Shown: in pieces, positions 1,125-36,996 of the stretch
Position numbering within the stretch: position 1 is the first letter of the stretch
Layout: every line of letters begins with the position of its first letter
Assembly: GCA_900315885.1 (NCBI GenBank)
Contig: ONAT01000010.1
Coordinates: forward strand, 1-46,013
DNA: 46,013 nt
Source: an uncultured Erysipelotrichaceae bacterium
GTDB taxonomy: Bacteria; Bacillota_I; Bacilli_A; RFN20; CAG-826
Reading direction: 5' to 3'
Position numbers and translations under genes: made by a program
Notes under the pieces: model-generated
The model's database searches: none
Told to the model about the DNA's origin: nothing
Seen by the model: the letters and a program-made list of their open reading frames with translations, nothing else

Positions 1125-3851
1125 TTATTCAATTACAAGTTCACGGATACAAATGCCCGCAACATTTTCAATATTAGATACAATCTTAACATATCTTGCT
1201 TTGACATTTTGATTAGTTAAATCAATAACTATTTCATCTTGTGAAAGATAATTTTCTTCGCCAACTCTAGTATAATTTGTGCCCTCTTCTGATACATAAA
1301 TTGAACAGTTTTCGAATAAGTCTCCTGGATGTTCACTACTATTTTGGTAAAGTTTAATCTTATTAACATCTTTTACTTTACGCATATCTAATAAGACATA
1401 TGCACCAGTTTTACATTTCCAGTCGAACCAAACGTATGTTGATAAATCATTATCAAGCATTAAGTTTAAATCGCTATGTGCAGCATTACCAAATCCATTT
1501 GGGAATCCATCAAAAGTAACCGTAGGTTCATCTTCTGCAAGAGTATTATAAGCAACTTCTTTAATAGAAACCCATGTTTGAGTATCAGTGTTCTTTAACA
1601 TGATAAATCTTGCTTTAACTGGATTATCACGTAAATCCAATAATGTTTCAGCACCCTTTAAACTACCAACAAGAGTGTAGTTTTTAGCATCTAAAGATGT
1701 ATAAACATTACCAACCATGTAGTCTGTTGGACCATTCGCATTACCAAAGAGAACTTTAATATCGTGAATGTCTTCAACTTCTTCTAAATCAATTCTTACA
1801 TATGCATCTTTTGCTGGATTAGATCCAAACCAGCAATATGTTGATTCATCACCATCTATAATATTATCTAAAGTTCCTGAATAAATGCTATCAAAGCCTT
1901 CATAAACAACCCCCGTTGGAAGTCCTAATTTGATTTTAACTTCATCATTCGCAGACTGTTTAATCTTTTGCATGAATGGTTTTAAGACTTTTACACCAAA
2001 GTCTGCATATTTGTAATCAACATTATAAGTAATTACATTTAAAACTGGTTCTTTATGAAGTTTAGAAGCTTCTTCGTAATTGTTTGCCTTTTCAAGCATT
2101 GTTTTCAATTCTTCATTTGAGTAAGAATCAAAATCTTTTAAAATACTCAGATAATTAATCATTGCATTACCAGCATCTTTTAATGCTTCTACCCATGGTA
2201 ACATTGATTCCACTAATTTTCTATTACTCGCATTATTAATAAAATCATTTGATTTAGACACTAATGCTTCAAAATATTCAATAAGATATTGATAACGAGC
2301 ATTGACATTTGCGTTATTAATCTTTGCTTGTTCTAAGTTATTAATTAATAATGCTAAGCTCTCTGATTCTTCAAAATATTTACCTTCATAAAGATTTGCG
2401 TTTGTTAAATGTGAAGAAATAAATTTAAATGAGTCGTAAACTGTTTCTTCAATATATTTAAATGATGCTTCATAACTCTTATCCATATCAAATTCACGAG
2501 GATTCCAAGCATAATCACAAATTGCCACTATTGATAATTTTGATGGTTCTGCTTGTTGCATTGGGTTAGTAACGATACCTTCAAATGCAGGTTCATCTTC
2601 ATAATTAATATTTAATACTTCGCCTTTACCCATAAGTAAGTTAGTAGGTAAATAGTCATTAACTGGCCAGTTTAACCAGAAAAATGGTTTCTTATTTGTT
2701 AGAGATTTAAATTCTGTGAAACGACCTGTTTCCATAGAGGAACAAACATCATCACCTGTCCACATAATGTGAATTGATTCATCTAAGCCATTCATCAATG
2801 TGGAATAATATTGATTTAAATCTACTCTCAAACGGGTTTCAGCTCTGTAACAATAAGCGCTAGGGACAAAAACTAAGTCTTTGCAACCTTCTTTTGTTTT
2901 TAAATAATCCGCTAAATCATTAAGGAGTTGACGGTGGAGTGAACCATCTTTAAGCAAACCTGTTTCAACTGCGACGTCATCCGCGGATACGACAAATTGT
3001 CTTACTCCTGCGCCATATATTTGATCAAATTTTGCTTTAATAACACTCAAACTATCATTGTAGTTACTAGAAGTAATGGCTTGTGATAAGAATGGGTGAA
3101 TTGCCCAAGCAAGACGTGTTTTAGTCTCTAAGCCAACTTGAATTTGTTCTTTTAATATTTCAAGGTCATTTTCAGTATATAATCCACGCCAATTTGAACT
3201 ATGATATGCATCATCTTTTGGTGCATAAATATAAATGTTTGACTTGAATTTTGAACCAAAACGCATTAATTCTTTTCTTTCTTCGCTTGTCCAAGGGATA
3301 CCATAATATCCTTCGATAAATCCACGATATAAAGAAGCTGAATAATCTTTAATTGTTAAAGATCTAATTGAACTAGTCGTTTGCTCAAAAATCATATCTA
3401 AAGTTGATAAGCCATAGAAGACACTATCAGAGTCTTTACCTAAAACAATAATTTTGTCTGTGGTAATTTTTAAATAATAGGAATCAATATGTGTGTTTAT
3501 AAAACTAACATCTTCTGTGACATAGTTATCAACAACTTCTTTGCTACCATAAATTCCTAGCATTAAATTTGTGCGGGAATCAACAATAGAATTAGTAATT
3601 GAAGTTTTAATGTTTTTAGTCGATAAAACATCAATTGCTTTAGTTTTGGTATATTCATCAATACCATCTTCGTAAATTACATTAAATTTTTTGTTTAAAT
3701 CTAATCTTGTCGATTCATAAGAAATGCTTTGTACTGTTGGATAAATATCATATTTTTCTTCAGATGTATCGGCATTAACATTCTTTAAGTTTCCACTTAA
3801 ACCAACGGTTAAGCCCATCATCACTAATGATAATACTTTAATCTTTTTCAT
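1125..3851 (-). CDS. Secreted GH84 beta-N-acetylglucosaminidase with two CBM32-like domains
   Basis: Hydrolyses terminal beta-linked GlcNAc (family activity: O-GlcNAcase/NagJ/hyaluronidase type, substrate-assisted mechanism). An N-terminal signal peptide is followed by a GH20/84-type beta domain and the GH84 barrel. The signature RGFIEGYYGIPW starts near residue 176, and the catalytic Asp pair is in VSADDV. Two F5/8-type C (CBM32-like) domains follow at roughly residues 660-780 and 790-908, each with a W-x-D/W-F patch. No sortase motif or C-terminal anchor is visible. ATG at 3851 is preferred over GTG at 3860 because AGAGGTG sits 6 bases upstream of it. Last gene of the operon, 12 bases after the LRR lipoprotein. 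The exact glycan (mucin, hyaluronan fragments, chitin oligomers) cannot be told from sequence. Confidence 0.93.
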   Translation of the reverse strand: MKKIKVLSLVMMGLTVGLSGNLKNVNADTSEEKYDIYPTVQSISYESTRLDLNKKFNVIYEDGIDEYTKTKAIDVLSTKNIKTSITNSIVDSRTNLMLGIYGSKEVVDNYVTEDVSFINTHIDSYYLKITTDKIIVLGKDSDSVFYGLSTLDMIFEQTTSSIRSLTIKDYSASLYRGFIEGYYGIPWTSEERKELMRFGSKFKSNIYIYAPKDDAYHSSNWRGLYTENDLEILKEQIQVGLETKTRLAWAIHPFLSQAITSSNYNDSLSVIKAKFDQIYGAGVRQFVVSADDVAVETGLLKDGSLHRQLLNDLADYLKTKEGCKDLVFVPSAYCYRAETRLRVDLNQYYSTLMNGLDESIHIMWTGDDVCSSMETGRFTEFKSLTNKKPFFWLNWPVNDYLPTNLLMGKGEVLNINYEDEPAFEGIVTNPMQQAEPSKLSIVAICDYAWNPREFDMDKSYEASFKYIEETVYDSFKFISSHLTNANLYEGKYFEESESLALLINNLEQAKINNANVNARYQYLIEYFEALVSKSNDFINNASNRKLVESMLPWVEALKDAGNAMINYLSILKDFDSYSNEELKTMLEKANNYEEASKLHKEPVLNVITYNVDYKYADFGVKVLKPFMQKIKQSANDEVKIKLGLPTGVVYEGFDSIYSGTLDNIIDGDESTYCWFGSNPAKDAYVRIDLEEVEDIHDIKVLFGNANGPTDYMVGNVYTSLDAKNYTLVGSLKGAETLLDLRDNPVKARFIMLKNTDTQTWVSIKEVAYNTLAEDEPTVTFDGFPNGFGNAAHSDLNLMLDNDLSTYVWFDWKCKTGAYVLLDMRKVKDVNKIKLYQNSSEHPGDLFENCSIYVSEEGTNYTRVGEENYLSQDEIVIDLTNQNVKARYVKIVSNIENVAGICIRELVIE

Positions 3852-3863
3852 ACGTTTCACCTC

Positions 3864-7221: not shown

Positions 7222-9741
7222 CTAATCATTAATTTGAATGTAAATAACCTTGTTGTTTTTCAAGTCCTCTTCTTCAAATTCAAGAGTATTGTTTGTAACT
7301 TTTTTATCATTAACAGTAATTGTTCTTTGTTTTAAATTATTGTTTGCGTAATCAATTACGAATTTTGTGCCTTTAATAGTAATTTCACATTTTGCTTTCT
7401 TACTTGGAAAGTAATCTCTAATGTTAATTACTACTTTATCTAAGTTAACACTTATACCAAAAGCACCACGTACAAGTGTTTTAATAAGCGTATTTGCTGA
7501 ACCCGTATACCAATCGGACATCGATTCTCCATCCATGCCTTCTTCTAAGTTATAAGAATAAGAATTTGGCATAACAAACGATGAAGTTGTCAATATTTTA
7601 TGCGTAATTGGTAATAATTTTTCAATTTGTTCATAAGCAAATTTTGGTTCATCAAGCATAAATAATGACATGACACCAAATAAAGATCCATGAATATATG
7701 TTGCACCATTTTCCGCACAACCTTTAGGTAAATTAACGATACGACCTACGCCAGGCGCATCTTCTTTAAAATAAGGGTTAAATGTTCTTAAGCCATATTT
7801 TGAATCTAAATTTTTGTACGCTTTTAAGATATTTTCTTTATCTAAATAATTTCGTTTATATAAGCCTGAAATTACGTAGAACGCATTAGCAGTCAACGAA
7901 TCACGTGACTCACCATCACTATCTAAGAAACTACCAACATAATAGCTTTGATGGTCTCCCCATCCATGAACTATCTTTTTGTCGTTTCCTTTTTTAACAA
8001 TTGCGTATTCTTTTAAACCATTTGCTAAATCTTCTCTCACTGAGATATATTGTTTAACTAAATCTTCATGTTTTCCAATTTTAGTCAAGATTTCACGCAT
8101 TTGATCTAAGACTTGATAAAGTTGTAAACTTGCCATGACAGACACGCCATCGCCATATTCTTTGCCTTCATCTTTTGTAATACCTAAACCATCTAAAGCA
8201 TCGTTCCAATCACCATACATTGCACGTAAGCACTTGGTTTTTGGATCAATATGTGTAATTAAATAGTTAGTTACTCTTAAAATGTGCGCAAGAACATTAT
8301 CGCGAGTGGAAGATAAAACTACTCCACCTGGTACACGGTTATAATAACCAATAACTTCTTTTAAAATTGAATAATCATTGGTGAATGCTAAATAGTTATA
8401 AATTGTATTAATAATCCACACACCTTGGTCAATAAAATCACGCAAATCCATAGCTGGAGTTCCACCAACTGGAGGAATAGAATATTGACGTGGAGGATTA
8501 CCCGACTCATCAATAAAACTTAAAGTCTCTAAAATTTTTTTACGGCAATCACGTGGATTCCACATTAAAGCCGCCTCAACTTGTTGCATTACATCTCTTA
8601 CACCTAAGAACATTGCGCCAGAGTTTTTAGCTAATCCGCAATATTCTGTTTGATATAAGACATAATCTAAAAATGTATTTAACACATTAGTGTTAATTTT
8701 ATTATTATTCCAATTATCAAATGAAATCTTAAGCATTTTCTTGGCTTTTATATTGTTACTAGTGACCGCTTTTTTGATTAATTCATTTGTTTGAGCATAA
8801 CTATAAATATCTTGTTTTAAATTATTAAATTCCTCTAATTCGTGGGTAAAGCCTAATGAATAATGAACAATACATTCTTCGTGACCTTTTAAATGATAAT
8901 GTGACATGTCACCCATAATTGAAGTATCAGTGAAATGTGTAATTAATTTGCCTTCTTTAAAACTTCCGTTTATTAAAGATTCCGCATTAATTAATTGATT
9001 TTCTGTCTTACCAAAATAGTCTTTACGTGAAGTTGTGTTTTGGCATGAATATGGATCATTCTTGACAAATTCACGTTTAATTACACCAAAATTCAAAATG
9101 TGTACTTTACGATTGATATCTTCTGGGCATTCAAACGCAAATGTATCATTTTGATATGTACATTTCTTGAACCATTTGGTTTCAATGCATTCCCCGTTTG
9201 CGTATTTTAACAAGCAATTCATATAACTTGATAGATATACTTCTTTTTCTTTGCTTGTTTTGTTATAAGCATAAACATCAAAGCATACTTTTTTATCATC
9301 AGTTACAAATATTCTTGTCGCATAACGCATTAATTTTGTTTCCACTAAATAGTAGACATATTCTTTAGCGTATACACAGAATCTTTTGACATCACTTTCT
9401 AAAGGATTCTTTCCCTTACCAAGTAAGGAAATTGGAACGTATTTATCCTTAACTTTTTCACCAGCATAGAAAGCAAGATAAGGGTCTTTTCCTTCATCTG
9501 CCGGTAAAACTACATAAAATGTTGATTCATTAATGGAAATATATCCAGAAGAGTATGCCCATAAAGTAAAGCCATCTTTACCATAAGGAAAACGTGATAC
9601 ACCGTTTGAGCGGTCCATACACAATACTTTTTTATCATCCAAGAAATACGAATTTTCAATAATGTAATTTTCTTGTTTTCTTGCATTAATTTCTTTAAAG
9701 AGATGCTTAACTTCCTTGCTAATCTCTAAATACTTATTCAT
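7222..9741 (-). CDS. GH94-like oligosaccharide phosphorylase
   Basis: Large cytosolic inverting phosphorylase of about 839 residues, cleaving an imported beta-linked di- or oligosaccharide with phosphate to give a sugar 1-phosphate. It shows an N-terminal beta-sandwich region (roughly residues 1-290), then an (alpha/alpha)6 barrel with GDWNDALD, the expected general-acid Asp motif of GH94 and related GH149/GH161 enzymes, and a small C-terminal beta domain. No signal peptide. Start ATG at 9741 has GGGTG upstream; a GTG at 9753 is less likely. Specificity is open. With NagA/NagB and GH84 beside it, a chitobiose phosphorylase giving GlcNAc-1-phosphate is plausible; with GH16 glucanases, a beta-glucan phosphorylase giving glucose-1-phosphate is equally so. 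The neighbouring mutase would serve either. Confidence 0.8.
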   Translation of the reverse strand: MNKYLEISKEVKHLFKEINARKQENYIIENSYFLDDKKVLCMDRSNGVSRFPYGKDGFTLWAYSSGYISINESTFYVVLPADEGKDPYLAFYAGEKVKDKYVPISLLGKGKNPLESDVKRFCVYAKEYVYYLVETKLMRYATRIFVTDDKKVCFDVYAYNKTSKEKEVYLSSYMNCLLKYANGECIETKWFKKCTYQNDTFAFECPEDINRKVHILNFGVIKREFVKNDPYSCQNTTSRKDYFGKTENQLINAESLINGSFKEGKLITHFTDTSIMGDMSHYHLKGHEECIVHYSLGFTHELEEFNNLKQDIYSYAQTNELIKKAVTSNNIKAKKMLKISFDNWNNNKINTNVLNTFLDYVLYQTEYCGLAKNSGAMFLGVRDVMQQVEAALMWNPRDCRKKILETLSFIDESGNPPRQYSIPPVGGTPAMDLRDFIDQGVWIINTIYNYLAFTNDYSILKEVIGYYNRVPGGVVLSSTRDNVLAHILRVTNYLITHIDPKTKCLRAMYGDWNDALDGLGITKDEGKEYGDGVSVMASLQLYQVLDQMREILTKIGKHEDLVKQYISVREDLANGLKEYAIVKKGNDKKIVHGWGDHQSYYVGSFLDSDGESRDSLTANAFYVISGLYKRNYLDKENILKAYKNLDSKYGLRTFNPYFKEDAPGVGRIVNLPKGCAENGATYIHGSLFGVMSLFMLDEPKFAYEQIEKLLPITHKILTTSSFVMPNSYSYNLEEGMDGESMSDWYTGSANTLIKTLVRGAFGISVNLDKVVINIRDYFPSKKAKCEITIKGTKFVIDYANNNLKQRTITVNDKKVTNNTLEFEEEDLKNNKVIYIQIND

Positions 9742-9752
9742 ATTTTCACCCA

Positions 9753-11168
9753 CTAATTGTCAATTTTTTTGACATATTCATTTAATATTTGCAGATATCT
9801 TTCTGCTTTTTCTTTATTTTCCATTTCAACAAAGATTCTTAAAACTGGTTCAGTCCCTGAGCAACGTAACAAAACCCAAGAGTCATTCGCGAAAATATAT
9901 TTAATGTTTCTATTTATGACTTTCTTTTCTAGAACTGGTTCATCGAAAGTAATAGCCTCATTATGTAAAGCATTCAATACTTTTTTATCATCTTTATAAG
10001 CAATTGAACTTTCAATGACATAATGATGGAAATTAGCAAAATCACGTACTTCTTTAACAATTTGTGAGATTGGTTTTTTCATCATTGTAATCATCTCTAA
10101 AAATAAGGCAAAAGCGAAAGAGGAATCTTTACCATATAGATATCCGCGCATTGTTAATCCACCTGATGATTCTCCGCCTAATAAAGCATCAACTTCTTTA
10201 ATCTTTGAAGAGATATTTTTAAATCCAACATCAACTTCATGACATTTGAAGCCTAATTTTTCTGTTACTTTATCAAGTAAATTTGATGTAGCTAAGTTTT
10301 TCACACTGTCGCCTTGCATATGACGATATTTAACAAGGTAGTAATATAAACAGGAAAGAATCTCATTACTATCGACATAATTTCCCGCTTCATCGAGAAT
10401 ACCTAATCTATCGCCATCTGAGTCAATTCCAAAAATACAATCATATTTCTTTTTTGCTAAGAATTTACGGTCAATTTCCATATTTGCTTTCGTAGGATTT
10501 GGTAAGGCAAAGCCAAAGAAGGCGTCGTGTCTTTTTCCTACAACTTCAAAATTTTTCAAATGCAATTCCTTAGCAAGGATTGATAATGATTTAATACCTA
10601 CACCATGAAGATTATCAAATAGTATTCTAGCTTCACTACCATCAACTTCTGGTAAGATAAATGATTTAATTGATAAAACATACTCTTTCAAGAAAGAAAT
10701 ATGTTCAATCTTTTTTTCTTTAATAGCTTCATCAAAGTCCATATTTTTAACTTTACGAACTTTTTGAATATCTTGTTCTATGCGGCTAGTTAAGGCTACA
10801 TCAGCATCCATACCTTCCTTTTGGAATACCTTAATACCATTAAAGTAATAAGGATTATGTGATGCTGTAATCATTACTCCAAAATCATTGTTCATTTGTT
10901 TAGTTTTAAACATAACTGCAGGTGTTGGTGTTGCCTCACTAGACAATAAAACCTTTATTCCATTTTTAGCAAAAACGGATGCCATCCATTCGCTCGCTTT
11001 ATCCGATAAAAAACGATAATCGTAACCAATGACAACTGGTGTTTTTGATTTTTCTTCTTTGATAATATCAGAGATTGCTTGCGCCACTAATTCAATATTT
11101 TCTTTATTGAAATCTTCGCCTATAACACCTCTAAAACCACCAGTGCCAAATTCAATTTTGTTTTTCAT
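9753..11168 (-). CDS. Phosphohexomutase (phosphoglucomutase/GlcNAc-phosphate mutase family)
   Basis: Interconverts sugar 1- and 6-phosphates in the cytosol. Alpha-D-phosphohexomutase signatures are in order: FGTGGFRG near the N terminus, TASHNPYYFNGIK (phosphoserine loop), GIDSDGDRLGI (Mg2+ loop), GGESSGG (sugar-binding loop) and RCSGTEPVLRI (phosphate loop). It has 471 residues from the ATG at 11168, chosen because GAGAGGAG lies just upstream; a start 18 bases earlier lacks this. It directly precedes the phosphorylase gene, so its likely job is to turn the phosphorylase product (glucose-1-P or GlcNAc-1-P) into the 6-phosphate for glycolysis or NagA. Confidence 0.93.
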   Translation of the reverse strand: MKNKIEFGTGGFRGVIGEDFNKENIELVAQAISDIIKEEKSKTPVVIGYDYRFLSDKASEWMASVFAKNGIKVLLSSEATPTPAVMFKTKQMNNDFGVMITASHNPYYFNGIKVFQKEGMDADVALTSRIEQDIQKVRKVKNMDFDEAIKEKKIEHISFLKEYVLSIKSFILPEVDGSEARILFDNLHGVGIKSLSILAKELHLKNFEVVGKRHDAFFGFALPNPTKANMEIDRKFLAKKKYDCIFGIDSDGDRLGILDEAGNYVDSNEILSCLYYYLVKYRHMQGDSVKNLATSNLLDKVTEKLGFKCHEVDVGFKNISSKIKEVDALLGGESSGGLTMRGYLYGKDSSFAFALFLEMITMMKKPISQIVKEVRDFANFHHYVIESSIAYKDDKKVLNALHNEAITFDEPVLEKKVINRNIKYIFANDSWVLLRCSGTEPVLRIFVEMENKEKAERYLQILNEYVKKIDN

Positions 11169-11186
11169 TTTTTTAACTCCTCTCAT

Positions 11187-11756
11187 CTAATCAAAACTCT
11201 TATATTCAAACGAATACACAATCATTTCCGAAAAATTATTTGTTTTTTCTCCTGCCCAAGATGGACACCATGCTCCAATCCAAACTTTCATTGGATGATC
11301 TGGAACATTTGTGGTAATGACTGCTTGTAATACATCATCGATGTAATATTCGACCTTTTCACCACGGTACCAGTCGAAACGATATACATGCTGAACATTG
11401 TCATAGATTTGATAATCGACGTTGCCATTAACGTGTGTGGCATCATTTTCTGATGTGTATGAAGAATAAATCACATTGTTTTTACCGAATAATTCGATAT
11501 CAATTTCATGATTTATGTTTCCTCCATTGCCATATAAGAATGTCCAAAACGCCATAGTAACGCCACTCCTCGCATTCGTGGAAGCCTTAAATACGAAACT
11601 CCCTTGATCGTAATAATCTTTTGATTCTAATGCTCCACCAATACGATTTTCCCCATCAACCTTAATCTTTACAAAATCACTATTGAATGTGACATTGTCG
11701 GCACTTACTCCATTATTTCCATCGTTTCCCCAAGATCGCGATACCGCTAGAAAGCT
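11187..11756 (-). CDS. GH16 catalytic domain in the -1 frame of the upstream gene
   Basis: About 189 codons of a GH16 beta-glucanase/laminarinase-type domain with no start of their own. The catalytic EIDIE motif (NHEIDIELFG) and the N-terminal SRSWGNDGNNGVSADNV stretch both align by eye with the second GH16 protein at 20849-22234 (NSSWGGSNGGVSPKNV and NHEIDIELPG). The frame opens at an A7 run (11756-11762) inside the last codons of the repeat lipoprotein; slipping back one base there joins the two exactly. It is either a homopolymer frameshift mutation/assembly error or a programmed -1 frameshift. An isolated start at 11555 would remove the N-terminal third, so the domain is not a separate gene. 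Confidence 0.7.
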   Translation of the reverse strand, partial: SFLAVSRSWGNDGNNGVSADNVTFNSDFVKIKVDGENRIGGALESKDYYDQGSFVFKASTNARSGVTMAFWTFLYGNGGNINHEIDIELFGKNNVIYSSYTSENDATHVNGNVDYQIYDNVQHVYRFDWYRGEKVEYYIDDVLQAVITTNVPDHPMKVWIGAWCPSWAGEKTNNFSEMIVYSFEYKSFD

Positions 11757-13591
11757 TTTTTTAATGCGTTACCACTATCTCTTTCAGCGATTCTAAACCA
11801 ACGGAATGCGGATGTTTCGTTATATTTATCATCAGCATTAACTTTGACGTTATAAGCATAAGTTCCTGGAGTAGTTGGCATTTCTGAGCCTAAATTTACT
11901 GCTCCTTCATCTTTTGTAAAGAAGATAGTTACTTGAGCATCGGCAGGAACTTCATAAGTAAATGAAGGTAAATCATCAACATAGAATGTTGTGCCATTTT
12001 CTTCAGCAGTGAATTCTACGCCATTAGCCTTAATAACTATTGTTGCATCTTGTTTATTGTTATCATCTTCAAGATAAAACCAGAAATAGTTTTCGACTTC
12101 GTTAAATTGACTGTTTGCTTCTACTTTAACGTGATAAGAATATACGCCTGGCACACTAGGAATTGTCGTACCAATATTTTCTTCTGTTTCGTTATTAACA
12201 AAGAACGCTGTTGCCACTGCTCCATCACTTACATCATAAGTAAACGAAGGTAAATTATTTGTTTTAAATGGTGTGACTAATCCTGTTTTTGGTTCTTTTG
12301 CTTCACCATTTACTTTAATAGTAATTGTTGGAGTGATTTTATTTCCTGCTTCTAAATAGAAATAGAACCATTTGTCCACAGCATTAAATCTCTCACTTGC
12401 TTCGACTTTAACGTGATAAGCATAAGCTCCTGGTTCACTTGGAATTCCATCAATAACTTGTTCTGTTTTGTTATTAACGAAATATGTTGTTGCGGTTGCA
12501 CCATCACTTATTTCATAATCAAATGTTGGAACTGTGGTATAAGGTTTAGTTTCTCCATTATTAGCTTCTCTTCTTTCTCCATTAACAATCATTGTAATTG
12601 TCGGAGTGATTTTATCTGCGGATTCTAAGCTATACCAGAACCAGTTTTCTACTCCATTGAAGTTATCATCTTCAATGACGTTAACGTGAATTGCATAACT
12701 TCCTGGTGTAGTTGGTGCACCATCTAATCTAGATTCATCAGTTGTGTTAACATAAAATACATCAACATTTGCACCTTCTTCACTCACTTCGTAAGTAAAT
12801 ACTGGGAGATTATTTGTTTTAAATGGTACTGATGTGCCTGTTCTAGGATCTTTGGCTTCACCATTTACTTTAATAGTAACTGTTGGTGTCACTTTAGAAG
12901 TTGCGTCAACAATTTTAAACCAACGGAACATTGAAGAAGCGTTGTAACTGTCATTTTCTAAGACATTAACAATGTAACTATAAGTTCCTGTTGTCGTTGG
13001 CATTGTATGTCCTAAATTTTCATAAGTATCATTACCTAAATCTTTTGAAAAGTAAAAATCTGCGGTCGCACCTTCACTAACGGAAAAACTAAATGTTGGT
13101 AAATTAGTAACATCAAATGTTGTTCCGTTCATATCTTCTGAAAATTCTGAACCATTTACCATAATCTTAATTTGGGCATCGACTTTTGGACCTTGTTTGT
13201 TTTTTACAATATATTGGAATGTTGTTTGGAATCCATTGTAATTAACATGCGCAGTTTTTGTACCACTTGTTGTTAAATCAACACCTGTTAACATTTCCAT
13301 TGTCATTGGTATGACTTCACTTTGTCCGCCTTCATAAGAAACACGGATTGTTGCATTATTGAGGTTAAAGGTATCTCCTACTTCATAACTTGTCACAGGA
13401 TAATCTTCAACTTCAATACTTGTGATAACCTTGTTAACACTTGTGTTCGGTGTATCAGGCGTTGACACAGATGTTGGTGTTGTACTTGGCCCAACAATAG
13501 AGCCTTGACTTGGTGTAGATGTGTTATTGTTACATCCTACCAAAGTTCCCATCATCATCGACAAAACTAATAAAATCGATTTCTTTTGCAT
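11747..13591 (-). CDS. Repeat lipoprotein, N-terminal part of a GH16 surface enzyme
   Basis: A 614-residue lipoprotein with lipobox LVGC (Cys20), a Thr/Ser/Pro linker (21-52), one bacterial Ig-like domain (about 56-130) and five tandem repeats of about 90 residues (138-601). It ends GNALKKAF immediately before TAG. The last codons TTA AAA AAA contain an A7 run from which a -1 shift continues into the GH16 domain. Intact, the protein would be about 800 residues with a C-terminal glycanase held off the membrane by a repeat stalk. Good ribosome site (GGGAGGAATTAAAA, then ATG). It lies 13 bases after the ATPase gene. Confidence 0.85.
   Translation of the reverse strand: MQKKSILLVLSMMMGTLVGCNNNTSTPSQGSIVGPSTTPTSVSTPDTPNTSVNKVITSIEVEDYPVTSYEVGDTFNLNNATIRVSYEGGQSEVIPMTMEMLTGVDLTTSGTKTAHVNYNGFQTTFQYIVKNKQGPKVDAQIKIMVNGSEFSEDMNGTTFDVTNLPTFSFSVSEGATADFYFSKDLGNDTYENLGHTMPTTTGTYSYIVNVLENDSYNASSMFRWFKIVDATSKVTPTVTIKVNGEAKDPRTGTSVPFKTNNLPVFTYEVSEEGANVDVFYVNTTDESRLDGAPTTPGSYAIHVNVIEDDNFNGVENWFWYSLESADKITPTITMIVNGERREANNGETKPYTTVPTFDYEISDGATATTYFVNNKTEQVIDGIPSEPGAYAYHVKVEASERFNAVDKWFYFYLEAGNKITPTITIKVNGEAKEPKTGLVTPFKTNNLPSFTYDVSDGAVATAFFVNNETEENIGTTIPSVPGVYSYHVKVEANSQFNEVENYFWFYLEDDNNKQDATIVIKANGVEFTAEENGTTFYVDDLPSFTYEVPADAQVTIFFTKDEGAVNLGSEMPTTPGTYAYNVKVNADDKYNETSAFRWFRIAERDSGNALKKAF
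11789..13180 (-). repeat. Five tandem ~90-residue stalk repeats
   Basis: Each unit starts with a TPTITIKVNGE-like strand, has LPxFTYEVSDGA in the middle and ends with TPGxYxYHVKVExxxxFNxxxxWFxFYLE. Units lie at residues 138-229, 236-325, 330-415, 420-510 and 515-601. The same unit occurs once more in the surface protein at 24502-26538, so it is a shared, mobile extracellular module. Confidence 0.85.
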
Positions 13592-13604: not shown

Positions 13605-14726
13605 CTATTTTAAAATGCTTTCTTCAGTTGTTTTATCAAACATATGGACACGATCAGTCTTGAATTTAATTTTGATTCTTTGATCTAAACCATATTCGAC
13701 TCTATTTTGAACTTTCATGACAAATTCGTTGTCTCCATCCATTACTAATTTGTTATCTTTATTATCAAATGTTAGATAAACTAAACATTCGCTTCCTAAA
13801 GTTTCCACAACTTTTACTGTTGCTTCTAAGGCATCAGCATCATCAGATTCATAGATGTCTTCACTACGAATTCCAAGAATTGCATCAAACTCGCGGTCCG
13901 CAAATTCATCTTTAAAATCTAAAGTAAGTTTTAATTCTTTATTTGTTCCTAATGGTGTAGCATAAGTATGCTTTGTTTTTCTTATTGCATGAACATTAAA
14001 GAAATTCATTTGTGGAGTGCCAATAAATCCAGCAACAAATTTGTTGCTTGGGTGATCATAGAGATTTGTTGGTGTATCTATTTGTTGCACTATACCATCT
14101 TTCATAACAACAATTCTTGTTCCCATAGTCATAGCTTCAACTTGATCATGAGTAACATAAATAAATGTTGTATTTAAAGTCTTATGTAAACGAATAATCT
14201 CGACACGCATTGCCGCTCTTAACTTAGCGTCAAGGTTACTTAATGGTTCATCAAATAAATAAACTTTTGCATCTCTAACAATTGCTCTACCAGCAGCAAC
14301 ACGTTGTCTTTGTCCACCTGATAAAGCTTTTGGTTTACGTTGTAAAAGATTTTCAATGCCTAATGTTTTACTTACTTCATGAACTTTTTTGTCAATTTCT
14401 TCTTTTGGTGTATGACGTAAGCGCAATCCAAACGCTATGTTTTCATAAACAGTTAGATAAGGATACAAAGCATAGTTTTGAAAAACCATCGCTAAATTAC
14501 GATCTTTCGGTTCAACGTCATTCATATATTCCCCATCAATATATAAATCTCCACTGGTAATTTCTTCTAATCCTGCAATCATACGCAAGGTAGTAGATTT
14601 ACCACATCCTGATGGTCCGACGAAAACAATGAATTCACCATCTTTAATATCCATTGTAAAATCTTTGACTGCGGTCACATTTCCTTTATAAACTTTTGTG
14701 ACATTTTGTAATAATAAACTAGCCAT
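13605..14726 (-). CDS. Sugar ABC transporter ATP-binding protein (MsmK/UgpC type)
   Basis: A 373-residue ATPase that would power the MalFG-like permease pair encoded upstream in the same operon. Walker [11 protein letters not shown]-loop VFQNYALYP, signature [18 protein letters not shown], Walker [14 protein letters not shown] and H-loop YVTHDQ are all present. A C-terminal TOBE-type domain (from about residue 240), typical of MalK/MsmK/UgpC, follows. The usual RVALGRAI is RVAAGRAI here, a minor change. In relatives one such ATPase may serve several carbohydrate importers; its presence in the operon suggests a dedicated one here. Confidence 0.95.
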
Positions 14727-14751: not shown

Positions 14752-15903
14752 TTATAATAAGATTCTTTCACTATGGTTAATTGAACTATCCACAGATACT
14801 GTGATTGCGCCATATAAAGTTGAGCGCTTTGATAGTTGTGTGAATTTAATCTCACATGGATTTCTTGTTGATTTTAATTCTTCTTTTAAACAGTTGAGGT
14901 AGTCTTCACCAAATAGTGAGACACGACCTGCTAAGACGATATGAGAAATATTTAATAATTCTACGATGTCTCTTAGTTTTTCACCTAGAAGATGAGCGGT
15001 TTCATTTACATATTCGTAAACTTCACCTTTTTTCTTATATTCTTCGCTAAGCAAAGCAACATTGTAGTGCTTACCATTTTTCTTTGAGAAATATTCTTTA
15101 ATACTTCTTAAAGAAACAAATTCATCAAGCACATTTTTCTTATTTTTAAATGTGGTAGTGATTAAGCCAATTTCCCCAGCGTAACCACAATCGCCACCAT
15201 AGAACTTGCCATTTAGCACCATAGCTCCACCTAAACCATTATCAACATAAGCTAATAAGGCATTACGAACATTTGCTAAGCATCCATATTTCATTTCACC
15301 AATAATTGATAAGTTAATATCATTTTGCATGGAAACTGGAATAGAGAAGGCATTTTCAAATATTGACTTAATATTATTCTTTCCATCAAATAAATCACGA
15401 TCAAATTGTTTTGATAATTGCAATTCTCCTGTTTGGGAATTAACACATCCTGGAACCGCTACAATAATTTGACGAAGAGGAATATCGCGATATTCTAAAC
15501 TTGCTAATGTGTCTTTAATAAATAAAACAATTTCATAAATTATCGCAATATCATATTTATCAATTTCTTTTTCGGCTTCTAATAATATTTCTTCTTTAAT
15601 ATTAGAAATCGTAATGTGATATCTATTGTCTGATAAAGAAACAACAATAATTAATCCAAACTCCTCATTAAGTGTGTAACGAACTTGTTTTCTTCCTTTA
15701 CCCGCTTTTGAAATATAGCATGACACTTTGATTAAACCATCATTAATAAGGCCTTTAAGAATTGAAGACATCGCCGCATTTGACAAGCTAAGAAAATCTG
15801 CTAATTCAGTCGCGGAATAGTCACCATTTCTTAATTCTTTTAATACAAGTTCATTGTTGAGTGTTCGTGCATAACTTTGATCTCTTCCTTGCATTTCATT
15901 CAT
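14752..15903 (-). CDS. ROK-family transcriptional regulator
   Basis: A 383-residue protein with an N-terminal winged helix (ELVLKELRNG through LSNAAMSSILKGLINDGLI, about residues 18-60) joined to a ROK sugar-kinase fold (from about 85). It resembles NagC/XylR-type regulators that bind a sugar or sugar phosphate. The ROK glycine-rich segments VPGCVNSQTGEL and DNGLGGAMVLNGKFYGGD are seen, but the Cys-rich zinc motif (CxCGxxGC) of most ROK proteins is missing after GYAGEIG. It probably controls this operon and the divergent binding-protein gene. The palindrome inside the promoter at 22358-22387 is a candidate site. Strong Shine-Dalgarno AGGAGG. Confidence 0.9.
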   Translation of the reverse strand: MNEMQGRDQSYARTLNNELVLKELRNGDYSATELADFLSLSNAAMSSILKGLINDGLIKVSCYISKAGKGRKQVRYTLNEEFGLIIVVSLSDNRYHITISNIKEEILLEAEKEIDKYDIAIIYEIVLFIKDTLASLEYRDIPLRQIIVAVPGCVNSQTGELQLSKQFDRDLFDGKNNIKSIFENAFSIPVSMQNDINLSIIGEMKYGCLANVRNALLAYVDNGLGGAMVLNGKFYGGDCGYAGEIGLITTTFKNKKNVLDEFVSLRSIKEYFSKKNGKHYNVALLSEEYKKKGEVYEYVNETAHLLGEKLRDIVELLNISHIVLAGRVSLFGEDYLNCLKEELKSTRNPCEIKFTQLSKRSTLYGAITVSVDSSINHSERILL

Positions 15904-20848: not shown

Positions 20849-22234
20849 TTACTTTTGTTTTAAAGAGACATTATCTATTAAAATAGAATTATCTTTTGTT
20901 GTTTCGACATTGATTCTAATATTTTGACTGCCTTTAGGAGCAACTAAATCAAGTGTATATTCACTTAAATTATCAGAATCAATATCAATAGTTTTAATAT
21001 CTAAGATTTCAGAAGTTGAAGCGCCATAATATCTGATGCTGATTTTTCCTTTTCCTTTTGCATGAATTGAGAAATCGTGTTTGAAACCTTGATATACGGA
21101 ATCAATTACTTGATAAGCAATACCTCCATCACTTACGGAAAGAGCGTGAGATTCATCAAATCCTTCGCCATCAACAACTTGAATTACTTCTTGTAGTTCT
21201 TTATTTTCGCTAAGACGTTTGGTTGCTTTCCATCCACCTATTTCTCCATTAGCCAAATTAACTTTTTCAAAGTTTCCATTTGCAACTTTATTAACAGTTG
21301 GAACAGCGACTGGAGCTTTTGGATATTCATTTTCAAAGGCAACACCACTAATAGTAGGGTTAAACTCTTCATAAGGTTGGTCTTTGAATGGAATATATTT
21401 TATATAATCAACATACATATTATCTTTTTCAAAATCAGCACTTCCGACAAAGGCACTTGTAACTGGGAACCAGTTTCCAATCCATAGACGTGCTTGTAAA
21501 TTAGGGACGAATACATCTGAAACACCAGTGACTAACCCATCAAGGTAATACACGACCATCTCAGGATCTGTATACCAATCAAAGCCATAAGTGTGCCAGT
21601 TGCCATCATTCAAGAAGACGCTTTCTTCACCAAACATATCTGAGACTTTAACATCTTGTGAGTGGCTTCTTTGTTCCGTAATGTAGTTAGTGTCTAAAAC
21701 ATTTTCAAAAGTTATAGTATCGTTACGATGTCCACCTGGAAGCTCAATATCAATTTCATGGTTACTACCATCTTCCACATTGTAAGCAAAGATCCAAAAA
21801 GCGGAACATGCGCCTAATCGAGGTAAGACTTTCATTTTTACTTCATAATGACCTGGTTGAACTAAAAACTTCGAGACAAGTGCTGCGCCAGTATAACGAC
21901 CATCTTTAATTTCTCCTACACTTTTAATGTCACCATCAACGTAATATTTGCCGTTCCCAGTCAAGACTAATTGTCCATCATCAGTGTAGTTAACATTCTT
22001 TGGTGATACACCACCATTGCTTCCACCCCAACTGGAATTAGAGATATACCAATTATCAAATGAAACCCCTTTAGAAAAATCATCAAAAAAAGCATTGTCG
22101 TAATCTAAAGTAACATCAGGCAATGTTTGTAGCTTATCGCCTTTTTTTAGAGTTAAATCGCTTGGGGCATTACATGATAAAAGACATGAACTCAAAACAA
22201 GCATGCTTGAAATACCAAAATGTTTACTTTTCAT
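20849..22234 (-). CDS. GH16 glycanase lipoprotein with C-terminal CBM
   Basis: A 461-residue lipoprotein, lipobox LLSC (about Cys21). The GH16 domain (about residues 48-290) carries the catalytic EIDIE motif in NHEIDIELPGG. A beta-sandwich carbohydrate-binding module of CBM4/9 type follows (about 318-461, beginning NKVANGNFEKV). GH16 enzymes cut internal beta-1,3 or beta-1,4 linkages of laminarin, lichenan, agarose-type galactans or mucin O-glycans; the subtype is not decidable by eye. First gene of the operon, behind promoter 22256-22284, so it may be the most highly expressed. Confidence 0.92.
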   Translation of the reverse strand: MKSKHFGISSMLVLSSCLLSCNAPSDLTLKKGDKLQTLPDVTLDYDNAFFDDFSKGVSFDNWYISNSSWGGSNGGVSPKNVNYTDDGQLVLTGNGKYYVDGDIKSVGEIKDGRYTGAALVSKFLVQPGHYEVKMKVLPRLGACSAFWIFAYNVEDGSNHEIDIELPGGHRNDTITFENVLDTNYITEQRSHSQDVKVSDMFGEESVFLNDGNWHTYGFDWYTDPEMVVYYLDGLVTGVSDVFVPNLQARLWIGNWFPVTSAFVGSADFEKDNMYVDYIKYIPFKDQPYEEFNPTISGVAFENEYPKAPVAVPTVNKVANGNFEKVNLANGEIGGWKATKRLSENKELQEVIQVVDGEGFDESHALSVSDGGIAYQVIDSVYQGFKHDFSIHAKGKGKISIRYYGASTSEILDIKTIDIDSDNLSEYTLDLVAPKGSQNIRINVETTKDNSILIDNVSLKQK

Positions 22235-30426: not shown

Positions 30427-32607
30427 TTATTTATCCTTATCATCATTTGAGTTATTTTTTATTTTTACTAAATCATTAAAGAAATAGGAATTCTCTTTTA
30501 ACATTTCTTCAAAGCTTGCTTTTTCTTTTTCAAATGATGGTAAATCATCCAAGCCAAATTCACTTCTCAAAGCTTTTTCGGTAAAGAAATCCGAAAAACA
30601 ATCCGTCGAGAATCTTTTTGAGTATATTTTCTTAAACATTAAAAAGTATTTTGCCTTTTTAGGTTCTTCATCCATTGTTCCTTTTTCGACATTCATTTTC
30701 ACATGATAAAATCCATATTTGTTATAAATACGTAATCTATAGTTATGTAAAAATGCTATAAAACGATGATATAAATACATTAATAATGTATTATCACCAC
30801 GCTCAAATCTAAAATTGTAATAGTGATCAGAAAACTTATCAACGAAGAATGATATAATTAAATCTTCTAATGAAAAGAATGGCATTGCTAGTTGCATGTC
30901 AGAACATTCATCAATATAAACTATTTCGCATAAATCACGAGCGTCCGCACCCCAAGATTCAGGACGTTGCTCATCAGCGATAACTTTCACGAAAGGAAAA
31001 TTATCAACTGTTGCTGAATGTCTAACCATTTTAAGCCAAGAATTAAATAAATCATTTTTTTGATTCGCAGTTAAATCATTTTTCTTAACTGAATTATTTT
31101 CTAAAGAATTACCTCGTTCTTTACCTATTTCCGTAATATTAATTACTCCAAACTCGAACGAGTCAGACAACTGATTATTTTCTAATACTTTCTTACCCAA
31201 TCTTAATGAATCAAAATCTAAAATATGAGAATGATTGGATTCTTCTATATTAATTGACTCCTTTGTAAATAAATCATTATTCCATAATGGAAAATTACCT
31301 AGATCCATTAACTCGTTGTCACTTCTAATCGAATAATTACTGATTATCAATGAACTTTGAATTAAATATATAAAATACAATTGACAATATGTGGATAAAG
31401 TATCCCAAATATTTTCAAGATACAAATTATTATCATATTCTAATTTATATTTATTTATATCATAACCAAATATAAATCCAGGAGATGGAAAAGCGTCAAA
31501 ATACGTTTTTTGCTCTTCTATCCATTTTTTAGCAGTAGCTAAATTGTAAATCTTATGTTCCTCAATTGCTTCTTTAATTCGCAATTCAAAATTTATCCAT
31601 GGAAAATTAGGAAATTTCAAATCTTGTTCTTGTATTTTTTCAAACGCTTTATCCCTAAGCATTATTTCTTGTGATAAAGCTATATCAGTAATCATGGTAG
31701 TTTTTTTTGAACCCATTGTTCCACACAACATTAACACTATTGGACGTTCATTAATAAAGCCTCTATCCATCATTTCCATATGATTCAAATTTTTTAAACC
31801 AATTTTAGATCTAATTAAGTATAATACCAGATAGCCAATTAATATCCATATAGGTAATGGAAAGAAATCGATTACTACCGATAAATCCATCAGTAATCTG
31901 ATTAGTTCCTGGTAAATTGAAGTTCTATCAAACGAACTTACGAAATAAATATAATAATTAAAAGTATCAAATATTATTGAGAAAAAGTTAAATTGAAATA
32001 AAAATATGACTAGCCATATTTTTAAATAATAATTATTTTCTCTTAGGAAAGTTATAAACTCGTTTACCCACTTCTTTAGAGGCCACACATATTTATCTTC
32101 AAACTTCTTAAATCTTTTTAGAGCCTTTGAATCTACGTTATAGTTATTATTAGTTTTCTTTTTTCTAAGCAAATTATAAATAATGATTGCTGCCGCAATT
32201 GGAGCAATTATCATAATCACGTTACTAATAACTAATAATATATTGCCTAACAATGTAATATAACCAATAAAGTTCTCTTGTGAAATGAAAACTGTGAAAT
32301 ATTTACTAATCTTTTCCGAGAAATCTTCCCATGTAACAGGTATTCCAAGCGGCAGTCTAAATGGCTGTTTTGTAAATTGTATGACTGTTATTTCGCCTGA
32401 TAAATCTAAATTGAATAGTTTTGAAAAATAGAATTTACCAGTTGTACAGGCATTTCTAAAACACTCTAGGAAGCGAGGCATTGCATATTTAAAATAAAAA
32501 ATCGAGAATAATAGAAAGAATAGTGTTAGAGCAGTGCAGATAAAGTGGCGATAATTACTTTTATAATTTCGCCACATGTTTCTAATTTTTTCTTTAGTTA
32601 GCTGCAT
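30427..32607 (-). CDS. Polytopic P-loop ATPase, Zot/pI-like morphogenesis protein candidate
   Basis: A 726-residue membrane protein. Hydrophobic spans lie at about 24-43, 113-147, 195-223 and 243-265. A P-loop ATPase domain follows: Walker A GTMGSKKTT (296-304), a probable Walker B FGVINITEIGKERGN (486-500) and a later conserved-looking KVIADEQRPESWGADARD (541-558). Filamentous phages need one inner-membrane ATPase of the Zot/pI family (HerA/FtsK clan) to extrude virions. Here the spans precede the ATPase, whereas in classical pI they follow it, so the assignment rests on motif plus context. Start lies inside the 35-residue membrane peptide gene (14-base overlap), indicating coupling. The alternative is an FtsK-like coupling protein of a mobilisable element. 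Confidence 0.7.
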   Translation of the reverse strand: MQLTKEKIRNMWRNYKSNYRHFICTALTLFFLLFSIFYFKYAMPRFLECFRNACTTGKFYFSKLFNLDLSGEITVIQFTKQPFRLPLGIPVTWEDFSEKISKYFTVFISQENFIGYITLLGNILLVISNVIMIIAPIAAAIIIYNLLRKKKTNNNYNVDSKALKRFKKFEDKYVWPLKKWVNEFITFLRENNYYLKIWLVIFLFQFNFFSIIFDTFNYYIYFVSSFDRTSIYQELIRLLMDLSVVIDFFPLPIWILIGYLVLYLIRSKIGLKNLNHMEMMDRGFINERPIVLMLCGTMGSKKTTMITDIALSQEIMLRDKAFEKIQEQDLKFPNFPWINFELRIKEAIEEHKIYNLATAKKWIEEQKTYFDAFPSPGFIFGYDINKYKLEYDNNLYLENIWDTLSTYCQLYFIYLIQSSLIISNYSIRSDNELMDLGNFPLWNNDLFTKESINIEESNHSHILDFDSLRLGKKVLENNQLSDSFEFGVINITEIGKERGNSLENNSVKKNDLTANQKNDLFNSWLKMVRHSATVDNFPFVKVIADEQRPESWGADARDLCEIVYIDECSDMQLAMPFFSLEDLIISFFVDKFSDHYYNFRFERGDNTLLMYLYHRFIAFLHNYRLRIYNKYGFYHVKMNVEKGTMDEEPKKAKYFLMFKKIYSKRFSTDCFSDFFTEKALRSEFGLDDLPSFEKEKASFEEMLKENSYFFNDLVKIKNNSNDDKDK

Positions 32608-32701
32608 TTAAACTATTCCTAAATGTATAAAATAGATATCCCACAATGATCATTATTACTATTCCTATTATTATCGACATTAATTCTTTTCTCTTATTCA
32701 T
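32594..32701 (-). CDS. 35-residue single-span membrane peptide, coat-protein candidate
   Basis: Translated directly from the sequence: MNKRKELM, then an uninterrupted hydrophobic stretch SIIIGIVIMIIVGYLFY, then TFRNSLNAAN. The charged N terminus, single span and short polar tail are like minor coat proteins pVII/pIX or a very short major coat protein. ATG directly follows the previous gene's TAA, with GGAGG 9 bases upstream. It overlaps the start of the ATPase gene. Such small genes are easily missed by gene finders. Confidence 0.7.
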   Translation of the reverse strand: MNKRKELMSIIIGIVIMIIVGYLFYTFRNSLNAAN

Positions 32702-34060
32702 TTATTTATTCCTCCGTTTATTAGATATCGCTCTAAAGGGCCACGTTATTATTGATATGATAAATTTAATTAAATAGACAATTGCTTTAAATATGATTGG
32801 TAGAATGACCGCTAAAATAGGACTACACAAGGCTACAATTAATACTAAAACTAAAATTTGTAATATAGTTCCAATTACTTCCATAATCTTTTGCAATAAC
32901 TTCTCTAAATCAGACCAATCTTTACCTTCCTCACCTGCTGGTTTATCAGAACCAGTTTGTTTATTATCTACTACACCAAGATTATAAGATACTCCATCAG
33001 TTTGGAATTTTAATCTTAGAATTGTTACATTCGATATATCAGTCCATGTATGCGATGAATACCCATCACCAGAAAGCCAACTATTTATCGTTTCCGTAAA
33101 ACGCAATACATACTTCATTCCATCTAATTCACTAATGTATTCTTCTTTTAAATTATCACCATCAGTCTTTTTAAATTCCTCAATCGTTTGTATTCGATTC
33201 CATTTGAATTTTGCAGCGCATAATCGATTTTCATTTTCGACTGTTTCAGACGCCTTAACTACTACTTCCTCATTTACTGGTTCGTCTTCAATTGTTTCGT
33301 CATTAAGTCCCGTTGAATGAAATGTCATTTTTTGACTTATAAATGATACTTTAGCTTCTTCCAATGTATCTATTTTTCGATTAGTACTAAAAACAACAAA
33401 ATGAGAATCAGTTACAGCAGTTGTATAAAATCCAAATGACAAATATAATCCTTTATCGTAGCGAATAAATCCACACCACTTATCAGTGATTTCTATGTAA
33501 TCTCTATCTATTCTAGAATAAGCAATTGAATCTCCCGTATAGGCTGCACAAAACAAGGAACCTACAGGATAACTAATCTCATTAATTGTATAATTATCGT
33601 CAGGCTGAGTATCGTATTCTTCATTGAATGGTCTAAATATAGATACAATCTCATAATAATGAATCATGTCGTTATTAGCGACAAAATCATTTACAACATA
33701 CTTTGCAAATACACTGTTGGAATTAATAAAAGTTAAATCATAAATTGATGGATTTATATTATTATCAATTGTTAATGACATACTGATAGACGAAGCTTTT
33801 ACTTCTTTAGTTATATTTGCAGGTTGATACGTATATATCAACAATTCTTTATCAGGTGTTTCAGCGATTTGAATTACTGAAATATCGATAACACTATCGT
33901 CGACAGTGTAATAATCCTCACTAAAGTTTGTATCTTTCTTTAGGTCAGTTAAAACGTCAGAATACTTTTCCTCAGCATGTACAAATGATAGACTAGTTAA
34001 ACTTGTAAAAAATAAAGCAAATATAGATAAAATAAATAATAATAGTGTCTTTTTCTTCAT
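32702..34060 (-). CDS. Secreted protein with C-terminal membrane anchor, adsorption-protein candidate
   Basis: A 452-residue protein with signal peptide (1-29, cut likely after SFVHA). A long ectodomain of about 330 residues rich in beta-strands follows. A strongly hydrophobic C-terminal region has two close spans (about 388-440) and a basic tail SNKRRNK. An N-terminal signal with a C-terminal anchor, encoded just before the assembly ATPase, is the layout of the minor coat/adsorption protein pIII. No sequence-level family was recognised. Its last codons carry the ribosome site for the next membrane peptide. Confidence 0.7.
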   Translation of the reverse strand: MKKKTLLLFILSIFALFFTSLTSLSFVHAEEKYSDVLTDLKKDTNFSEDYYTVDDSVIDISVIQIAETPDKELLIYTYQPANITKEVKASSISMSLTIDNNINPSIYDLTFINSNSVFAKYVVNDFVANNDMIHYYEIVSIFRPFNEEYDTQPDDNYTINEISYPVGSLFCAAYTGDSIAYSRIDRDYIEITDKWCGFIRYDKGLYLSFGFYTTAVTDSHFVVFSTNRKIDTLEEAKVSFISQKMTFHSTGLNDETIEDEPVNEEVVVKASETVENENRLCAAKFKWNRIQTIEEFKKTDGDNLKEEYISELDGMKYVLRFTETINSWLSGDGYSSHTWTDISNVTILRLKFQTDGVSYNLGVVDNKQTGSDKPAGEEGKDWSDLEKLLQKIMEVIGTILQILVLVLIVALCSPILAVILPIIFKAIVYLIKFIISIITWPFRAISNKRRNK

Positions 34061-34077
34061 GTTCTCTCACCACCTTT

Positions 34078-34118
34078 TAAAAAAATTGAGCAGAGTAGAT
34101 TCTCTACTCCACTCAATT
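34078..34118 (-). terminator. Intra-operon terminator after the 314-residue gene
   Basis: AATTGAG/CTCAATT and AGTAGA/TCTACT arms separated by a symmetric 3-base internal loop, followed by seven T on the minus strand. It lies between two genes of the same module, 8 bases after one stop and 18 bases before the next start. Confidence 0.85.
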
Positions 34119-34125
34119 AAAATAA

Positions 34126-35070: not shown

Positions 35071-35109
35071 ATTCTTATTCCTCCTTAAAATAACAAAATT
35101 TAATTTTTT

Positions 35110-35382
35110 TTATTTTTTAGAATTTCCTACAGACCTTAAATAATTTTCAAAGTCATTTAATTTTTTTGGAAACTCTTTTTGAACTTGTTTATATAATTTT
35201 TTCCTATTTTCAATAGGCATGATTTTATAATTTTCATATTGCCAATTTGTTACATCGTCATGATATTTTGCCTTACAATTTTCATCAATGGAATTACTAA
35301 ACGTATATTTCTCCCTAAGCCGCTCATGTGCCATTATCGAGCGAACAACATTTCTTGGATATCTTTTTTTCTTTTTTACCAT
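35110..35382 (-). CDS. Small basic protein of unknown function
   Basis: A 90-residue protein beginning MVKKKKRYPRNVVRSIMAHE; mostly helical, basic at both ends. ATG at 35382 is preferred because GGATAGG lies just upstream; an earlier TTG at 35433 overlaps the previous gene and lacks a ribosome site. It lies 10 bases after the previous gene. Not recognised. Confidence 0.6.
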   Translation of the reverse strand: MVKKKKRYPRNVVRSIMAHERLREKYTFSNSIDENCKAKYHDDVTNWQYENYKIMPIENRKKLYKQVQKEFPKKLNDFENYLRSVGNSKK

Positions 35383-35392
35383 TTCTAAATGC

Positions 35393-35593: not shown

Positions 35594-35595
35594 AA

Positions 35596-35808: not shown

Positions 35809-35860
35809 AATCACACCTTTCTTTTTTTTAAATTTCATAGATAACAGACCAAATTTTTTT

Positions 35861-36922: not shown

Positions 36923-36982
36923 GTAAAAACCTCTTTAATAAATTAGGCATTTCTTTAACCACCTTCCTAATTTTATTAGTCA

Positions 36983-36996
36983 GTCAGTTAACTGAC
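36983..36996. repeat. Palindrome GTCAGTTAACTGAC between genes
   Basis: A 14-bp perfect palindrome directly behind the stop of the 134-residue gene and about 60 bases before the Rep start. Its 12-bp core TCAGTTAACTGA recurs exactly at 39077-39088 and with one change at 40930-40941. Confidence 0.6.

Follow-up and report, generated by a model that had tools for sequence, protein, structure and literature searches.

A lipoprotein gene broken ahead of its enzyme domain

The window analysed here is the whole 46,013-nucleotide (nt) stretch of contig ONAT01000010.1, from an uncultured Erysipelotrichaceae bacterium (assembly GCA_900315885.1), and the gene in question lies on its minus strand, where the open reading frame (ORF) of a lipoprotein stalk ends just ahead of a GH16 catalytic domain that is written in another frame. 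The parts of this gene are the following:

11747..13591, minus strand: lipoprotein stalk of 614 amino acids (aa), with a signal peptide with lipobox LVGC, a Big_3 domain and five repeat modules
11756..11762, minus strand: run of seven adenines (A7), a slippery heptamer A_AAA_AAA in the phase of the stalk frame, read from the sequence
11747..11749, minus strand: TAG closing the stalk frame, read from the sequence
11187..11756, minus strand: GH16 catalytic domain in the -1 frame, 189 aa, with EIDIE (Pfam Glyco_hydro_16, PF00722, 1.2e-14)

The stalk protein consists of MQKKSILLVLSMMMGTLVGC, followed by Big_3 (PF07523, 2.5e-05 in Pfam) and then by five repeat modules, for which Pfam gave no match above its cut-off; its start has a Shine-Dalgarno (SD) sequence of -10.8 kcal/mol. 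The ORF ends in TTA AAA AAA GCT TTC TAG, with six bases between A7 and TAG, and the A7 at 11762..11756 is its sole run of seven or more adenines. The -1 frame reads AGC TTT CTA GCG and continues for 189 aa to a TAG at 11187. The initial annotation had placed a GH16 domain in the -1 frame behind the stalk stop, six bases after A7, and the sequence, the Pfam match and EIDIE bear this out.

Only the 12 nt ahead of the slip point are open in the -1 frame, which has no ATG, GTG or TTG before 11555, a position within the catalytic domain; therefore, the whole domain cannot be made from such a start. The GH16 domain of the window is whole only via recoding, via an altered A-run, or not at all. The -1 reading ALKK-SFLAVSRSWG, aligned by eye, matches that of the related genome G002 (see below) without a gap across the junction (ENLVNNFEAVSRVWG). 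Amino-acid change in this frame is not accelerated: the ratio of nonsynonymous divergence (dN) is 1.86, compared with 1.51-3.69 for eight neighbour genes. Such an ordinary ratio speaks against long decay, not against a recent indel.

In-frame TGA codons in related operons

The genus sample comprised four genomes, including that of the window. Two of them (G001 and G002, the latter with its locus on CANQQL010000007.1 from an uncultured Bacilli bacterium) possess a syntenic operon in which an in-frame TGA splits the gene, one repeat module ahead of GH16, and the junctions read INA-TGA-ATG-QQVTLVPDVV and ESD-TGA-ATG-TQVTIVPDVV, respectively. The second part of the gene contains one stalk-type module and GH16 and is continuous across the site of the window's A7. 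One tabulated entry shows the G001 stalk as a stop-free frame of 811 aa, but the TGA is present in the letters, which are followed here. The remaining genome of the genus (G003) gave no match for the split gene nor for the GH94 gene of the operon.

Searching the order at E up to 1e-20 gave matches in 7 of 279 genomes and added two orthologues (G269 and G272); the matches in G221 and G039 were set aside as other GH16 proteins with intact frames of 494 and 696 aa. G269, which belongs to another family, has a TGA at the same place (TAAS-TGA-CTA-TQVTIVPDG), and a phosphoglucomutase gene comes next. G272 holds an intact lipoprotein-stalk-GH16 fusion, a single open frame of 1385 codons that opens with a lipoprotein start, runs through GH16 and beyond and contains an N stretch. 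A class-level profile search at E up to 1e-25 covered 395 genomes drawn evenly from the larger group, a partial sample in which G001, G002 and G269 were not among the matches, and returned only the window's own genome and G272. Viral contigs yielded no relative. The five operons found comprise one intact fusion and four genes broken between complete stalk modules and enzyme, by two devices. At these five loci, TGA is otherwise rare as a stop, closing 5 of the 83 other ORFs of at least 150 aa.

The initial annotation had proposed the same locus in related strains as a check on the A7, with uninterrupted relatives that lack the run as the adverse outcome. The run is indeed missing from relatives at that place; as for uninterrupted frames, three relatives are interrupted elsewhere, by TGA.

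Apart from the split gene, G001 encodes a 363-aa paralogue (L037, G001:C23:66273-66563) that lacks GH16; it has a signal-like N terminus, two modules of the stalk type and, at the C terminus, a hydrophobic segment.

Selection and RNA folding behind the TGA

Behind the TGA, dN and synonymous divergence (dS) between G001 and G002 are.177 and 1.157, with.406 and 1.167 in the stalk, and comparison with G269 gives dN/dS pairs of.340/1.77 and.289/1.35. These values indicate purifying selection (dN/dS about 0.15-0.21), and the TGA is kept between genomes with dS of 1.16-1.77. Synonymous sites are near saturation; therefore, a stop codon that was not needed would be expected to have mutated. Ahead of the codon that follows the TGA, no SD was found in the three TGA genomes (-0.9, 0.0 and -0.1 kcal/mol), and in G269, this codon is CTA, with the first ATG 166 codons downstream. 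The N termini of the second ORFs have a hydrophobicity of 0.58-1.73, compared with 2.09-2.9 in five exported proteins of the window, and no clear signal peptide was seen in them. Where a residue is invariant, the three genomes all use the identical codon in 12 of 18 cases within the first 30 aligned codons versus 39 of 114 later (Fisher p 0.017); in columns 31-100, the count is 1 of 18.

The RNA behind the TGA was compared with codon-shuffled controls. Over 75 nt, the z-score was -4.48 in G002 (0 of 1000 shuffles as low) and -3.5 in G001 (2 of 1000), and over 90 nt, it was -4.09 and -2.83, respectively; for G269, the values were -2.09 over 75 nt (13 of 400) and -3.45 over 90 nt (1 of 400). Three paralogous modules showed no excess folding over 75 nt (z -0.51 to -0.98). 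In scans along the gene, the segments as extreme as the TGA site numbered 1 of 77 for G002 (90 nt) and 1 of 79 and 2 of 78 for G001 (60 and 90 nt), and in G269, the segment 6 nt from the TGA ranks third among 78 and the one 36 nt away ranks second. All three genomes have GAG for one Glu of the stem, although this codon makes up 7-18% of the Glu codons at these loci. Of 24 pairs, 3 differ on both sides, of which one belongs to the shared stem and the others to a stem farther down; a strict covariation claim was dropped on account of such thin pair changes, and we rely on folding energy instead. An AlphaFold model across the UGA with tryptophan inserted, of mean pLDDT (predicted local distance difference test) 49, was also discarded, being too poor over the two stalk modules to place the UGA in a linker; alignments alone are relied on for that.

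Possible decoding of the UGA

Another question is how such a UGA could be decoded. Selenocysteine was rejected: selA was found in none of four genomes and in neither of two further genomes, and the three TGA loci had no Rfam hit at E up to 1. Reassignment of UGA (code 4) was rejected as well, since prfB (RF2) is over its cut-off in all four genus genomes, TGA serves as a stop elsewhere, and tRNA-Trp(CCA) is present and a UCA anticodon absent in 64 loci read by ARAGORN (drawn from 123 tRNA matches, with G269 not among the genomes covered). Near the start of the best prfB locus in each of these four genomes (L021-L024) stands CTTTGAC, which we take to be the typical motif of the prfB (RF2) +1 frameshift. 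A special tRNA-Trp with a 4-bp anticodon stem, an idea drawn from PMC13092985, was likewise rejected, because the stem is 5 bp, counted by eye, in all three tRNA-Trp.

Among the stops, UGA is described as the leakiest (PMC4989110). Readthrough of 6% is cited for catA86-TGA in prfB+ Bacillus subtilis (PMC7918605), and UGA reporters gave 12% in E. coli and 0.08% in Pseudomonas putida (PMC9481147); in E. coli, UGA readthrough reportedly rises under carbon starvation and with excess glucose alike (PMC11126739). The kept codon, the purifying selection behind it and the folded RNA make readthrough of the UGA in G001, G002 and G269 the probable reading of these three genes.

A proposed recoding explanation for the operon family

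We propose that this operon family has a recoding point between the stalk modules and the enzyme, at which most ribosomes would release an enzyme-free stalk and few would continue to the enzyme-tipped form. In G001, G002 and G269, readthrough at a low rate would occur at an in-frame UGA that is followed by a stably folding region, with tRNA-Trp(CCA) as the probable decoder. In the window, which lacks both that module and the UGA, a few ribosomes would slip back by one base on A_AAA_AAA and finish the enzyme. We infer readthrough, slippage, the rates of both, surface display and the purpose. The most economical function would be a fixed ratio of many stalks to few enzyme tips. Taken as a whole, with UGA readthrough in the relatives and A7 slippage in the window, we judge the explanation a little more likely to fail than to hold. 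On this explanation, the gene product would be a cell-surface lipoprotein, an Ig-like stalk with a GH16 beta-glucanase tip, encoded in an operon of the beta-glucan type. We lean slightly more against the slippage of ribosomes on the window's A7. It is unlikely, if worth stating, that the enzyme dose on the stalk is set by recoding with an exchanged device, namely, a UGA with 3' RNA structure in two families and a -1 slippery run in a sister lineage. The initial suggestion that one gene yields both an enzyme-free stalk and an enzyme-bearing form receives indirect support from the conserved in-frame TGA ahead of GH16 in three relatives; in the window, the A7 may do that job.

Several results weigh against the recoding explanation, first of all at the A7. 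The run lies in the A_AAA_AAA phase that suits -1 frameshifting, but the RNA behind it shows no excess folding over codon-shuffled controls (z 0.52 over 60 nt and -0.66 over 90 nt, with pseudoknots outside the test), and SD-like pairing upstream is weak (-4.5 kcal/mol). The small hairpin GCG-GTAT-CGC is present and unremarkable, and it was rejected as a stimulator because folding is no better than in controls; the initial annotation was right that only a weak small hairpin follows the site and that programming is not clearly supported. The 23 window ORFs checked contain 19 A7/A8 runs, 18 of them elsewhere than in the stalk (three being A8), and 9 of these 18 have the same A_AAA_AAA phase within intact ORFs. 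Nor is the run conserved, since G001, G002 and G269 read through that place without an A-run. E. coli heptamers that slipped above threshold without stimulators did so at 2.1-10 times the ~0.055% background (PMC4066793), a range for such heptamers in general and not a value for A_AAA_AAA itself; by analogy, such low slippage on unstimulated heptamers is a further adverse point. Taken alone, the A7 is unremarkable and proves little.

On the UGA side, the 60 nt after the TGA in G002 show ordinary folding (z -1.48), and 10 of 78 segments in the 60-nt scan of that gene are as extreme as the TGA site; the sequence right behind the TGA in G269 is ordinary as well (z 0.23 over 45 nt and 1.13 over 60 nt). 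The shared stem starts 33 nt past the TGA, its single pair change on both sides occurs in two sequences, and once G269 is added, only the inner five pairs are in register as we read the sequences. Within the first 30 codons, G001 and G002 have a synonymous identity of 0.71, but it reaches up to 0.83 elsewhere, in parts of GH16. Among other mechanical ORF starts, 8 of 54 also score weaker than -3 kcal/mol, and the N termini of the second ORFs in G001 and G002 (1.73 and 1.68) lie above those of six cytosolic proteins (0.17-1.53). The TGA-ATG of these two genomes is also compatible with reinitiation, and in G269, a GTG preceded by GGAG at a distance of two bases stands 11 codons past the TGA. The operons of G001, G002 and G269 form one clade; therefore, their TGA represents one event that was kept, not three.

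Alternative explanations

The alternative that survives best takes the window's A7 for an ordinary indel in a run prone to mutation. The enzyme domain would then have been lost recently or be turned on and off reversibly (phase variation), and the UGA of the relatives would be a separate matter. We consider this alternative a real possibility that nevertheless falls well short of even. It is in line with the A7 being the only run of its length in the stalk ORF, with the absence of stimulators and of conservation at the site, and with the dN ratio of 1.86, as a recent event would leave no excess amino-acid change; for phase variation, a localized frameshift case in a lipoprotein of a mycoplasma ABC-transporter operon appears as a title among the references of PMC3711429. 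However, the break falls between stalk and enzyme, where the relatives have TGA, which would be a coincidence for random loss, and the 18 other A7/A8 runs sit in window ORFs that run on.

Termination followed by reinitiation would give two proteins, the second from the ATG behind the UGA, with a cytosolic GH16 acting on imported oligosaccharides. Such a process would suit the ATG directly behind the TGA in G001 and G002, a pair kept among variable codons, and the GTG of G269, 11 codons on with GGAG close by. Nevertheless, the TGA of G269 is followed by CTA, with the first ATG 166 codons on, the residues right behind its TGA and ahead of the GTG are conserved, the ATG of G001 and G002 lacks an SD, the second ORF opens with a module of the surface-stalk type, and the window is without a comparable start; we regard reinitiation as improbable. 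RNA polymerase slippage on the A7, in which some mRNAs with an altered run length would encode the same fusion protein, is less probable again: the product would be identical and slippage may occur on shorter runs in some bacteria, but nine is the length at which selection against slippage becomes evident in a large proportion of genomes (both PMC1088944), and the window ORFs checked contain 18 further A7/A8 runs. An assembly or consensus error in the A7 is highly improbable, for although the source is a 1.32-Mb draft genome of 39 contigs, eight operon neighbours align to their orthologues without a break and the window ORFs with 18 other A7/A8 runs are unbroken.

Evolution of the break

In a tree of three operon proteins, G001, G002 and G269 group together (support 100), apart from the window and G272; the trees cover four proteins from five operons, and the GH16 tree is weakly supported (28 and 68). 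The operon has probably moved between families. For the GH94 and ROK proteins, G269 is closer to G001 and G002 than the window of the same genus is, and for phosphoglucomutase, this is not so. The window's last module is of a different subtype from that of the TGA lineage, and its break lies one module nearer the enzyme. The window is then a sister lineage that either never had the UGA or lost it together with that module.

The GH16 domain and its operon

The AlphaFold model of the window's GH16 domain, computed from a two-sequence alignment, has a pLDDT of 72.8, and its TM-score (template modelling score) against the Bacillus lichenase 1mac is 0.77, with 22% identity in the structural alignment; together with the PF00722 match, this supports the beta-jelly-roll fold of GH16. 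The catalytic ExDxE motif is EIDIE in the window and EIDFE in G001, G002 and G269. The matches of NCBIfam beta-glucanase models to the domain are far below their cut-offs. The neighbouring genes with which it is encoded are as follows:

9753..11186, minus strand: phosphoglucomutase-type enzyme, the next operon gene, also found behind the GH16 part in G001, G002 and G269
7222..9753, minus strand: GH94-type phosphorylase (PF17167, 2e-29)
13605..14726, minus strand: ABC transporter ATPase of the sugar type (TOBE_2; MalK OB fold below its cut-off)
14752..15903, minus strand: putative ROK-type regulator, from its translation, with orthologues present
20849..22234, minus strand: second GH16 protein, an intact lipoprotein with its own signal peptide (PF00722, 6.1e-12)

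The operon thus comprises the intact second GH16 lipoprotein, ABC permeases and the ATPase, the regulator, the stalk gene, the phosphoglucomutase-type and GH94-type enzymes, and NagB- and NagA-like enzymes. The gene at 14752..15903 is presumably of the ROK type, and the permeases, the regulator and the NagB- and NagA-like enzymes are what we take their sequences to be. Judged from this gene content, the operon may serve the use of beta-glucan.

Near the NagB- and NagA-like genes, positions 1125-3860 encode a NAGidase-type beta-N-acetylglucosaminidase with F5/8C domains. Elsewhere in the window's genome (G000:C27:79-1122), a stalk-like module is fused in frame to a GH16-like domain behind a hydrophobic N terminus; here, EITIE replaces ExDxE, and the protein is possibly a binding-only relative. 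In the window itself, positions 30427-39606 hold several large minus-strand ORFs, four of which were tested and had no Pfam match at E up to 0.001, and a phage-type integrase (40994-41926) adjoins tRNA-Thr (42021-42096). Because the integrase lies beside tRNA-Thr, an integrated element is likely here.

Meaning and known parallels

To our knowledge, recoding of cellular genes in uncultured Bacilli has been little explored. A limited literature search found no report of a bacterial glycoside hydrolase made by stop-codon readthrough, nor of a recoded one on a bacterial surface. Automated gene finding and pseudogene filtering would probably treat all four genes as split or broken. If readthrough is true, one bacterial system that degrades polysaccharides at the cell surface uses the trick of gag-pol, in which structural molecules are many and enzymes few, and uncultured Bacilli would provide a UGA element that is compact and testable. 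Orthologues would then reach the same end by different recoding devices; dnaX orthologues, too, differ in recoding mechanism (PMC3711429). Given the shifts of UGA readthrough reported for E. coli (PMC11126739), the display of the enzyme might even depend on nutrition.

As an enzyme, the window domain shares its fold and a sequence-profile match with the Bacillus GH16 lichenases (1mac, 1gbg), whereas it differs from them in sitting on a lipoprotein stalk. The proposed decoding resembles low-level bacterial readthrough of a leaky UGA, in which tryptophan is the usual insert (PMC7918605, PMC9481147). The known cases are mutant or reporter codons; here, by contrast, the UGA is kept across species with a structured 3' side.

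For the A7, a close parallel is fucA of Saccharolobus solfataricus, which encodes an alpha-L-fucosidase; there, too, an A-run heptamer (A-AAA-AAT) divides the gene of a glycoside hydrolase between two frames, the second in -1, and the enzyme is expressed by recoding. That gene is archaeal, the overlap of its ORFs is 40 bases, and it is described with a putative stem-loop (PMC8037382), whereas the window gene joins a stalk to an enzyme domain and no stem-loop stands out at its A7. A close parallel to the family as a whole is retroviral gag-pol, in which related genes likewise append an enzyme to a structural protein by either UAG readthrough or -1 frameshifting (PMC5009743). The gag-pol system is viral and experimentally established, whereas here recoding is proposed for a bacterial surface protein.

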